Below are positions 10,930 through 12,979 of a DNA stretch of 14,630 nt, one piece after another. Below the pieces are notes generated by a model. That model saw only the letters and a program-made list of their open reading frames with translations. It searched no databases and was not told where the DNA came from. The stretch is from the NCBI GenBank assembly GCA_019057975.1, contig JAHLWJ010000096.1, positions 1-14,630 of the forward strand, in the 5' to 3' direction. Numbering within the stretch: the first letter of the stretch is position 1; each line of letters begins with the position of its first letter. This DNA comes from Promethearchaeota archaeon. GTDB lineage: Archaea > Asgardarchaeota > Lokiarchaeia > Sigynarchaeales > SOKP01. The translations under genes and the position numbers were made by a program.

Positions 10930-11235
10930 TTATCCACAACAACTATTACTCTGAGGATTTTTAGATCGAGCTCGAGCATTCCATAAACAACCGCACCCTT
11001 TACGCTCTTGTAGGAGAATCGCCATTGCGGGGCAATTTCTTTTACATGCACTACACTCAGTGCATCTTTCAGGTTCATATATTTTGAATTTTCCATTATC
11101 ACTTGGTTGGGGGATGCCGAAAGGGCAAACTTCTGCGCAGACTCCACAACCAGTGCATAGAACTGGATCAATTGATATTTTTGGAAGAGTTATTGATATT
11201 TTAATTGAAGATGGTTTTAGGGTTATTTTAAACAC
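10930..11235 (-). CDS. HgcB-like dicluster 4Fe-4S ferredoxin
   Basis: A 101-residue ferredoxin with two [4Fe-4S] motifs: C27/30/33/37 (CTGCGVCAEVCPFGI) and C58/61/64/68 (CTECSACKRNCPAMAI). After them come GCGC (C81, C83) and a C-terminal vicinal pair C99-C100 (SNSCCG). HgcB, the electron donor to the corrinoid protein HgcA in mercury methylation, has the same order: two clusters, a following Gly-Cys site and a terminal Cys pair. The start is GTG at 11235; an ATG overlapping it is out of frame and stops after four codons. It lies 64 bases downstream of the HgcA-like gene on the same strand, as in hgcAB loci, with a TATA-like stretch in the gap. Its likely role is to reduce the corrinoid of that partner. 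A minus-strand frame at 10872-11171 is its shadow. Confidence 0.85.
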   Translation of the reverse strand: MFKITLKPSSIKISITLPKISIDPVLCTGCGVCAEVCPFGIPQPSDNGKFKIYEPERCTECSACKRNCPAMAILLQERKGCGCLWNARARSKNPQSNSCCG

Positions 11236-11299
11236 ATCGTTTATTTAACACTTTAATTAAATAATATATTTTATCATATTTATGTTACTATTTTATAAT

Positions 11300-12979
11300 T
11301 TAGAAGAAGATAAATCCGAAAGTAACTGTAATTAAGCCAATGAATAACAGTGTAAGATGAATTTTCCTGAAAATTGGATATTCCTCTTGGATCTCAGCAG
11401 GACTAGTAGTCATTGAATAACCGCTAAAGCTCATGGTTGAGAAGAATGCAAGCCAAAAATAGAAACACGAGTTCCATATAATTAATAGTAGTGAGCGATG
11501 GAATGCCCATGTTATTCCACCAAGAAATAACACATTTAAAATCCCAAAGAAACTCCCCTTAATAAGAAACTTCCGCGTAAAATTCGTAAGAGGGAATAAA
11601 GATGCTATTAGAAAATTAGCAAGGGCAATCCAAAGCCAAATCTCCCCTACTCTCCAAAATTTATCAATCCAAAATGTATTAATAAAACTTAACCCTAAAA
11701 GGAGCAGAAGCAAAATGACTGTTGGCCAGAGGAAAATTTTCCGTAGTAAAAATGTCGTATGTGTTATAAATGCTCTTAATCGATGAGAACTGGTAAATCT
11801 TGCCAGCTTCCATTTGTCCGGTTTTTTCGCAGGACGTTCTTTTAAGTATTTGGGTAAATATTTAGCCCACACGGGACCATAGAGTATATTGAAGGGGAAA
11901 TCAGGTGATTCACTGGAGATCAGTGGAGCTGCAACACCCCCTGCTGAAAGTTGAGGAAGAATTAATGTTTTTCTATTTGTTATTTTATCAATTCCTGTTG
12001 CTTCAACCGCTTCAATTAGTTGTTTGTTGCCAAAATCATCCCCACGTGCCGCACACCAGACATTTATTCCTCTTGAATCTACACATAATACCCAGGCATC
12101 TATTCCTTTAAGAGATCTCATAACTTTAATATAGGTATAAACGTAATTAGCTGTTACGATAATTGGTGATTTTTCATCTGGTTTTCCTGATTGATAAATT
12201 CCTGGTTCAATAGCAATATGATCAACTTGTCCTGTAAAAATACATTTATATATTTGCACTTGTCCTCGAAACCCCTTAAATTTTCTTTGTGAGGGACGAT
12301 AGTATCCAGGTTCATCTCCATTTGAATTCCCAACTTTTTCTAATTCCAGAGCTCTAATTGATCCCCGTTTCCATTTTTTTTCGGTATTAATTTTGAACCC
12401 TATAGGTTCTATATAATTAAAAAACCATTTCACAAGTGAAGTACTTGGTAATCGAAGTCTTCTCAATTTTTTTTTATACCACCATCGTTTTATTTTAAAT
12501 ATTGTTTTCCAAAATCCTGAAGGGATAAATTCAGCAGCAACTATTAATTTACCCCCTGGTTTCAATACTTTTCGTGCACTTCTAAGAAAGATTTGCTGTT
12601 CAAAAGGTCTAAGCTCAGAAAGCATGAATGTACTAACAATAATATCTTTAGAATTCTCATCAGCGGGTAATTCTCTGATAGTTCCTATCTGATATATTAA
12701 TTTTACATCTTTCTCAGAAGGATAGTTCTTCATGGCAGTATTAATCATTTGAAAATTTTTGTCTATTGCTAGAACGTCATTTCCTTTTAGTGCCATCTTA
12801 GCAGCAAGGGTACCTGTCCCACTTCCTACTTCCAATATAGATTTGGATGTTCCAATCCGTTCCAAAACCCAATCTTTGACTTCAACATTAACCCCCTTTG
12901 TTAAGACTGTAAATTTCTCATCATAAGTATCTGGTTCTAGCTCTAACTTCCTCATAAAAGTAACAGCGATATTAATCAC
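11300..12979 (-). CDS. SAM methyltransferase fused to HgcA-like corrinoid membrane protein
   Basis: A 559-residue fusion. Residues about 20-215 form a class I SAM-dependent methyltransferase (motif I ILEVGSGTGTLA 48-59, acidic D73 in AIDKN, post-motif KPGGKLIVAAEF about 140-151). Residues about 255-385 match the HgcA corrinoid domain: PGIYQSGKPDEKSPIIVTANY, GIDAWVLCVDSRG, then the cap helix NVWCAARG (306-313), LILPQLSAGGVAA and ILYGPVWAKYLP. C309 corresponds to the cysteine proposed to ligate cobalt in HgcA (motif NVWCAAGK), but the GK is replaced by RG. The C-terminus has five membrane helices (about 410-436, 446-464, 474-493, 496-518, 541-559), the HgcA number, with FSGYSMTTSPAEIQEEY where HgcA has a similar FTG..TFTS..GV.KEM stretch. 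No signal peptide; globular domains probably cytosolic. The start is GTG at 12979, but ATG at 12955 (residue 9) is equally or more likely. The partner ferredoxin follows. Methyl acceptor unknown; true mercury methylation is not proven. Confidence 0.88.
   Translation of the reverse strand: MINIAVTFMRKLELEPDTYDEKFTVLTKGVNVEVKDWVLERIGTSKSILEVGSGTGTLAAKMALKGNDVLAIDKNFQMINTAMKNYPSEKDVKLIYQIGTIRELPADENSKDIIVSTFMLSELRPFEQQIFLRSARKVLKPGGKLIVAAEFIPSGFWKTIFKIKRWWYKKKLRRLRLPSTSLVKWFFNYIEPIGFKINTEKKWKRGSIRALELEKVGNSNGDEPGYYRPSQRKFKGFRGQVQIYKCIFTGQVDHIAIEPGIYQSGKPDEKSPIIVTANYVYTYIKVMRSLKGIDAWVLCVDSRGINVWCAARGDDFGNKQLIEAVEATGIDKITNRKTLILPQLSAGGVAAPLISSESPDFPFNILYGPVWAKYLPKYLKERPAKKPDKWKLARFTSSHRLRAFITHTTFLLRKIFLWPTVILLLLLLGLSFINTFWIDKFWRVGEIWLWIALANFLIASLFPLTNFTRKFLIKGSFFGILNVLFLGGITWAFHRSLLLIIWNSCFYFWLAFFSTMSFSGYSMTTSPAEIQEEYPIFRKIHLTLLFIGLITVTFGFIFF

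Follow-up and report, generated by a model that had tools for sequence, protein, structure and literature searches.

An HgcA-type protein fused to a SAM methyltransferase in an Asgard archaeon belongs to a widespread subfamily with relatives beside arsenic genes

The window, the whole stretch of 14,630 nucleotides of contig JAHLWJ010000096.1 from a Promethearchaeota archaeon, was analyzed for a minus-strand gene pair resembling the mercury-methylation genes hgcA and hgcB. The first gene encodes a class I S-adenosylmethionine (SAM) methyltransferase of the CpaM type fused to an HgcA-type corrinoid protein, and the second, which follows after a gap of 64 bp on the same strand, encodes a dicluster ferredoxin. 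The features of the pair are listed below.

11300..12979, minus strand: CpaM-HgcA fusion gene, 559 amino acids, GTG start (open reading frame, Pfam and NCBIfam matches, homologue search)
12341..12961, minus strand: class I SAM methyltransferase (CpaM) domain, residues 7-213, with GSGTG at 52-56, D73 and E122
11834..12253, minus strand: HgcA/CdhD-type corrinoid-binding domain, residues about 243-382 (Pfam, NCBIfam, CFeSP gamma 2h9a/4c1n)
12047..12064, minus strand: cap-helix motif NVWCAA, residues 306-311, followed by R-G (G-K in canonical HgcA)
11306..11791, minus strand: five-helix C-terminal domain, residues 397-558 (AlphaFold model, Foldseek)
10930..11235, minus strand: HgcB-like dicluster ferredoxin, 101 amino acids, GTG start, cluster cysteines 27, 30, 33, 37 and 58, 61, 64, 68
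10987..10995, minus strand: C81-G-C83 after cluster 2, in the region of HgcB Cys73 (sequence)
10936..10941, minus strand: C-terminal cysteine pair C99-C100 of the ferredoxin (sequence)

Open reading frames and the Pfam and NCBIfam profiles confirmed the domains, order and spacing of the hgcAB-like pair described in an earlier sequence-only reading of the window, and the GTG start of the fusion aligned with the ATG start of homologue P0005. At the N-terminus, where that reading had placed a class I SAM methyltransferase, Pfam Methyltransf_11 matched residues 49-147 (E 3.3e-15), and NCBIfam CpaM (NF043040) matched residues 7-213 with 136.1 bits over model positions 3-214 of 216, missing its cut-off of 180. 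The placement of residues 255-559 in the HgcA/CdhD family was likewise borne out by Pfam CdhD (56 bits, gathering score 24.8) and by NCBIfam HgcA (NF040863; 170.1 bits, E 6.5e-50, residues 254-552), the latter below its cut-off of 275. The profile of the HgcAB-like fusion (NF043039) scored about equally on the window fusion (171 bits, cut-off 285), and HgcB (NF040864) gave 53.5 bits (cut-off 99) on the ferredoxin, in which two CxxCxxCxxxCP motifs, a GCGC after cluster 2 and a CCG end were found. Judged by these scores, the window pair belongs to the HgcA superfamily and reaches none of its named families, all four NCBIfam cut-offs being missed. The AlphaFold model of the fusion (42-row alignment, mean predicted local distance difference test score 89.2, predicted template modelling score 0.86) contained the expected five long helices within residues 397-558, and its best PDB match in Foldseek was the published computed HgcAB model 9a0b_A (E 2.2e-12); a second PDB comparison covered mainly residues 8-218 and said little on the C-terminal domain. 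Hydrophobicity and kinship with HgcA suggested that this domain sits in the membrane.

The window pair shared with canonical HgcA and HgcB the NVWC corrinoid domain, the five-helix domain and the adjoining dicluster ferredoxin, the latter with the same two CxxCxxCxxxCP clusters, cysteine after cluster 2 and terminal cysteine pair as canonical HgcB. Differently, the window protein carries an N-terminal CpaM and has NVWCAARG in place of NVWCAAGK. The canonical motifs are NVWCA(A/G/S)GK for HgcA and C(M/I)EC(G/S)(A/G)C for HgcB (PMC7536318); the former was absent from the fusion, and the ferredoxin had CTECSAC. Identity with canonical HgcA was ruled out by the NVWCAARG motif together with the missed cut-offs. 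The HgcAB-like and CpaM families of NCBIfam have in common with the window an HgcA-type protein linked to a CpaM methyltransferase, but in those families one chain combines HgcA with HgcB and CpaM has its own gene, whereas in the window the HgcA part and HgcB are encoded separately. No mercury methylation is seen with fused HgcAB from Pyrococcus furiosus or Methanococcoides methylutens (PMC5893877), and fused HgcAB proteins have served as paralogues for rooting HgcAB trees (PMC7438021). CFeSP gamma and CdhE also carry a C-terminal corrinoid domain, but have no SAM enzyme. In L111-L117 NVWC is absent and 10 residues or fewer remain between the end of the corrinoid match and the C-terminus, so that no membrane domain follows; the window fusion covered only PF03599 positions 254-359 of 387 and NF003195 positions 309-446 of 450. 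ArsM, too, is a SAM enzyme that occurs together with acr3 and an ArsR-type gene; it adjoins the fusion in one relative (L194) but has no corrinoid partner. ArsM holds arsenic through cysteine ligands, and no cysteine was found in the methyltransferase domain of the window; across 51 aligned methyltransferase rows the only column with cysteine in half or more lay inside the SAM motif.

Homologues of the fusion protein were collected (452 matches at E <= 1e-5, of which the best 120 were used for all figures), contigs carrying relatives were scanned (best 80 of 572), and 227 genomes from the phylum of a Lokiarchaeota genome were surveyed among the matches listed, to about E 1e-31. Both Pfam domains were annotated in 119 of the best 120 homologues, and the profiles of both domains matched all 120 (P0091 was short at the N-terminus); NCBI named most of these 120 of 452 only as "methyltransferase domain-containing protein". 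In the survey, 57 of 227 Asgard genomes carried the fusion among the matches listed, counting those that spanned 500 or more of 549 positions and scored 500 bits or more. Three of these rows (G005, G195, G199) showed a stop within the match, and their genes read as single frames (L015, L220, L221). Because all 120 best homologues matched both domains and 57 of the 227 genomes carried the fusion, an assembly error, which the sequence-only reading had raised as one outcome that would overturn it, was ruled out, as was a chance fusion; locus L001, from a Lokiarchaeota metagenome-assembled genome, was 95% identical to the window locus, in agreement with the Asgard origin suspected from the letters alone. 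Organism names among the best 120 were Promethearchaeota, Hodarchaeota, Thorarchaeota, Lokiarchaeota and Hermodarchaeota, and among the matches listed two-domain fusions were also present in Chloroflexota, a Poribacterium and a Zixibacterium. Triple fusions including HgcB were found in a Bacteroidales and a Desulfobacteraceae genome, in G542 and in the Asgard genomes G005, G093 and G194. The fusion is thus a real, widespread and so far nameless subfamily of HgcA-type proteins.

Some Asgard genomes, G001, G002, G005 and G194 (L095, L096) among them, held two CpaM-linked HgcA systems, namely a two-domain fusion together with a triple fusion or a pair of CpaM and HgcAB genes. HgcAB-like fusion proteins also occurred in records of a Streptosporangiaceae, an alphaproteobacterium and a Breoghania (P0207, P0218, P0222), groups in which we did not expect them, and a search for HgcAB-like proteins on plasmids gave no match.

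The relation between CpaM and HgcA was evaluated across these loci. Four arrangements were seen, always with CpaM first: three separate genes (CpaM, HgcA, HgcB), CpaM followed by fused HgcA-HgcB, fused CpaM-HgcA followed by HgcB as in the window, and a fusion of all three. The fusion that had seemed an oddity of the window is therefore one arrangement of a widespread CpaM-linked group. In the loci examined, non-canonical HgcA either began with a CpaM domain or had a CpaM gene ahead of it on its own strand, usually no more than about 120 bp away; the exceptions were cut ends (L034, L121, L136, L166) and wider gaps (L123, 2577 bp; L129, 990 bp; L131, 289 bp). At L161 the locus comparison gave a methyltransferase on the opposite strand, and in the genome-wide search a gap of 44 bp separated the end of a CpaM match from the HgcAB match. 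Among 45 canonical-type HgcA (42 with AAGK), several with short flanks, none had a same-strand upstream CpaM within 3 kb; at L052 a weak methyltransferase (66 bits) lay 1.9 kb upstream on the other strand.

Loci L091-L130 had been hand-picked with a profile that included the methyltransferase, and the CpaM rule was therefore based on less selected samples. The best 30 NF043039 matches in 247 genomes from the phylum of a Desulfobacteraceae genome (L161-L190) comprised 8 HgcAB-like or fused loci and 22 canonical ones (21 AAGK, 1 AAGA), and an upstream CpaM was found at none of the 22; one of them (L188) had a weak methyltransferase (51 bits) 635 bp downstream. The best loci of 251 genomes of the Chloroflexota phylum were 1 HgcAB-like with CpaM, 3 fusions, 1 canonical without CpaM and 1 odd cut gene. 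CpaM was then searched genome-wide in 29 genomes, that is 28 of the 30 behind L161-L190 (G526 and G611 left out) and G009. It exceeded the cut-off in 8, and in a ninth, G542, where a contig end divides the gene, it came close with 176 of 180 bits; these nine were exactly the genomes with a CpaM-linked HgcA (9/9), including G485, where CpaM and HgcA lie on different contigs. None of the 20 genomes with canonical HgcA as best match had CpaM over the cut-off (weak matches in G523, 82 bits, and G509, 75 bits). The SAM residues were conserved in the 51 methyltransferase rows (G52 in 51, G54 in 50, D73 in 50, E122 in 51), and NVWC was kept as well. The Asgard three-gene class (L093, L098-L100, L103, L108, L122, L124) carries NVWCGSRG or NVWCSAAG, and its seven members in the careful tree described below formed one clade (99/92). 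An HgcA-like gene from the Chloroflexota search (L136, upstream end cut) had NVWCASDAG and a very long branch.

The cysteine tail of HgcB was also compared. A cysteine after cluster 2 and a terminal CC or CxC were found in all 52 HgcB detected beside Asgard fusions. Of these, 41 come from the 44 Loki-type loci, and each of the 6 Thor-type loci and the 5 remaining Asgard loci (L018, L019 and three further) contributed one. Elsewhere in the CpaM-linked group a tail of at least two cysteines occurred in 0 of 7 rows (6 genes) of triple fusions, 1 of 23 HgcAB-like proteins, 0 of 12 rows of Chloroflexota fusions and 0 of 9 rows of the three-gene class, with at least one tail cysteine in 15 of the 23 HgcAB-like. 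Canonical HgcB had the tail in 46 of 55, or 47 of 56 when L036 is counted; the motif pattern had classed the canonical L036 and L077 as linked, and L036 was one of three rows there with at least two cysteines, the others being the cut fusions L034 and L121. Mercury methylators need Cys73 and at least one of the terminal cysteine pair of HgcB, according to PMC7305189, which also names Heimdallarchaeota as possible methylators. Several of the remaining canonical HgcB frames (L062, L069, L078) end in SGVG and a stop where others have cysteine, perhaps reflecting selenocysteine; proposed selenoprotein homologues are mentioned in PMC11588087.

For the gene neighbourhood, duplicates with identical last 300 residues were dropped, and so were loci with less than 1.3 kb upstream (5 of the 44 Loki-type, 1 of the 5 other Asgard); Loki-type, Thor-type and other were assigned by sequence except at the named loci L001-L019, L034 and L059. 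Of the 39 Loki-type loci retained, 20 had an acr3 gene no more than 5 kb away, and in 16 it stood immediately upstream, at most 200 bp off and in the same orientation; 26 had an ArsR-type gene with a CxC motif nearby, and 27 had at least one ars gene. One of 24 genomes had no acr3, and the remaining 23 had one or two; by our estimate from genome size, chance would therefore place acr3 this close in far fewer than 1 in 100 loci. Thor-type loci had an ArsR-like gene with a CxC motif close by in 5 of 6 (ACVCEF in the two read), and no ars gene was found at the four other Asgard loci examined. At L194, acr3 (281.9 bits), arsM (347 bits, cut-off 263), the fusion, hgcB and two small genes stand in one operon on one strand, with a divergent ArsR-type gene beside it. 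Two small genes follow hgcB in several Loki-type operons (L194:7149-7929, L008:12111-12824, also L005, L006, L009, L011 and L012). The first has a CAC motif, and a metal(loid) carrier is a possible role; the small genes gave no Pfam match in examples from L012 and L009 and no NCBIfam match in the L194 example.

In the careful HgcA tree (89 rows, with the long branches L104 and L136 left out) canonical HgcA formed a single clade (100/100), and the Loki/Thor fusions (100/97) were its sister with support of 89/86, inside a CpaM-linked background. This position is suggestive only, since placing them with the HgcAB-like side was not rejected by the approximately unbiased (AU) test (p 0.225). Canonical HgcA fell inside the CpaM-linked group in both trees, but the opposite was not rejected (AU p 0.353) and the outgroup changed position between trees. 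One origin of the 20 two-domain fusions was weakly rejected (AU p 0.0206), which makes repeated fusion events, or a later separation of fused genes, probable. The CpaM and HgcA trees had correlated path distances (r 0.73, 50 rows; none of 2000 shuffles as high), as would be expected for genes travelling together. In the methyltransferase tree the outgroup served poorly, with long branches and scattered positions.

From the domains, motifs, cysteine tail and gene order read in the sequences, and the arsenic-gene link of relatives, we infer the corrinoid binding, reaction steps and ion that follow. The best explanation, whose chances we consider about even, is a membrane enzyme fed by SAM that methylates a thiophilic metal or metalloid via a corrinoid, the ion in Lokiarchaeia being most likely As(III), perhaps Sb(III); arsenic is proposed there because the neighbouring genes point to it. 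The HgcB ferredoxin would reduce the corrinoid in the HgcA domain to Co(I), the fused CpaM domain would bind SAM and methylate Co(I), giving methyl-Co(III) and S-adenosylhomocysteine, an ion held by the HgcB cysteines would take the methyl group from the corrinoid, and the methylated product would leave the cell or be exported. As(III) is methylated by methylcobalamin without an enzyme under reducing conditions (PMC6950371). A bolder proposal, which we regard as somewhat unlikely, is that CpaM acts as a SAM:Co(I)-corrinoid methyltransferase of class I and that CpaM, HgcA and HgcB form a second, B12-dependent route of arsenic or antimony methylation in Asgard archaea. If this holds, the ability to make methylmercury would be secondary or incidental in an older family that methylated metalloids and lost CpaM. 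The membrane corrinoid system related to hgcAB, with a built-in SAM enzyme, that the sequence-only reading proposed is supported, and the cysteine tail, together with the arsenic genes found in relatives, agrees with a metal(loid) acceptor. "Undescribed" holds for the window proteins, which stay under the cut-offs, but CpaM ("corrinoid protein-associated methyltransferase") and the HgcAB-like fusion are already named in NCBIfam. Among the open-licence PMC papers listed by the searches, none contained either of these two names, and none dealt with a fusion of CpaM to HgcA or with an acr3 neighbour of such genes. New here are the four arrangements with the CpaM rule, the cysteine tail of Asgard HgcB and the acr3 linkage of Loki-type loci.

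Several observations weigh against arsenic methylation through CpaM. The chief one, which bears on a simple donor role of CpaM, is that canonical HgcAB in purified form obtains its methyl group from SAM rather than methyl-tetrahydrofolate, via methylcob(III)alamin with a cysteine ligand (PMC11588087), and does so without CpaM, which may thus act otherwise; no SAM-binding domain was seen by us in canonical HgcA. This also outdates the contrast with a methyl-tetrahydrofolate donor drawn in the sequence-only reading. No ars gene was found beside the window fusion in 1.65 kb upstream or 5 kb downstream, nor at 12 of 39 Loki-type loci, including the near relatives L003, L014 and L191, and several close relatives had MarR or FMN-reductase (flavin mononucleotide) genes upstream instead. 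The acr3 and ArsR-type neighbours were detected with our own seed sequences; scored by NCBIfam, acr3 reached 428 bits at L095 and 277.9 bits at L008, the latter just under the cut-off of 282.8. Because the L194 operon includes an ArsM of the usual kind, a further enzyme is not required for methylating arsenic there (conventional ArsM exceeded the cut-off in 3 of 24 genomes). Canonical hgcAB also stands beside ars genes (L065), its proximity to acr3, arsC, arsR or arsM has already been published (PMC7438021, PMC10349881), and in P. mercurii hgcAB is reported to be under ArsR-like control and to respond to arsenic (PMC10349881). Because canonical hgcAB shares these neighbours, arsenic is not singled out by them.

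The same neighbours would suit an unlikely alternative in which mercury is methylated as by canonical HgcAB, the part of CpaM is limited to providing the methyl group, and the nearby ars genes reflect a common metal(loid) regulation. The sister grouping with canonical HgcA in the best tree and the cysteine tail common to canonical and Asgard fusion HgcB speak for it, but that grouping is not significant, AAGK is missing, the HgcA and HgcB cut-offs are missed, and two genomes (G009, G015) hold both canonical HgcA and a CpaM-HgcA fusion of another branch. It is less probable still that CpaM places a first methyl group directly on the metal(loid) like ArsM and HgcA a further one: the methyltransferase domain has weak ArsM/UbiE-like scores and the neighbourhood holds arsenic genes, but the arsenic-ligand cysteines of ArsM are absent from a window domain that has no cysteine. 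An equally low chance is given to an organic thiol or other small molecule as acceptor, or a reverse demethylase, with the metal link incidental. The other CpaM-linked HgcB, which mostly lack a tail of at least two cysteines, and the fused HgcAB of the two archaea that do not methylate mercury would agree with this, but the constancy of the tail beside Asgard fusions (52/52), the ArsR-type and acr3 linkage, and the tail cysteine in 15 of 23 HgcAB-like proteins argue against it. Methionine synthase (MetH) is reactivated by SAM, and CpaM could likewise be a repair domain rescuing oxidised cobalamin, the working methyl group coming from elsewhere; this we hold to be very improbable, given that CpaM stays with the CpaM-linked HgcA group in the members sampled and that canonical HgcAB uses SAM as donor (PMC11588087).

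Since the fusion family carries its own SAM domain and many relatives stand in arsenic operons, both the cellular role of hgcAB and the uptake of the SAM methyl group by HgcA become testable with one protein pair. As canonical HgcAB manages without CpaM, the fusion may show which part was lost or replaced. The arsenic hypothesis would not have come from the window alone. In metagenome surveys, CpaM-bearing HgcA-like proteins without AAGK should not be counted as mercury methylators untested.

Among the other genes of the window, a Gelsolin-domain protein (10073-10918, plus strand) is convergent with the ferredoxin gene, and its relatives occupied the same place in 8 loci (L001, L003, L014, L086-L090), some of them overlapping records of one genome. 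A two-ferredoxin-motif protein, a flavodoxin and a flavin-reductase-like protein are encoded in a row at 5364-7753 (minus strand); they are possible electron donors to HgcB, with opposite-strand genes lying between. A major facilitator superfamily (MFS) efflux-type transporter (8007-9251, plus strand), weakly Bcr/CflA-like (61.6 bits, cut-off 200.9), had relatives in 7 of the Loki-type loci compared. The large protein with a DPPFNTG motif at 1288-3600 (minus strand) is presumably a restriction-system DNA methyltransferase. A Ras-like small GTPase (3645-4181, minus strand) and a cold-shock-type protein (GTVKWFNSKKGYGFI; 4920-5168, plus strand) were both recognized by eye.

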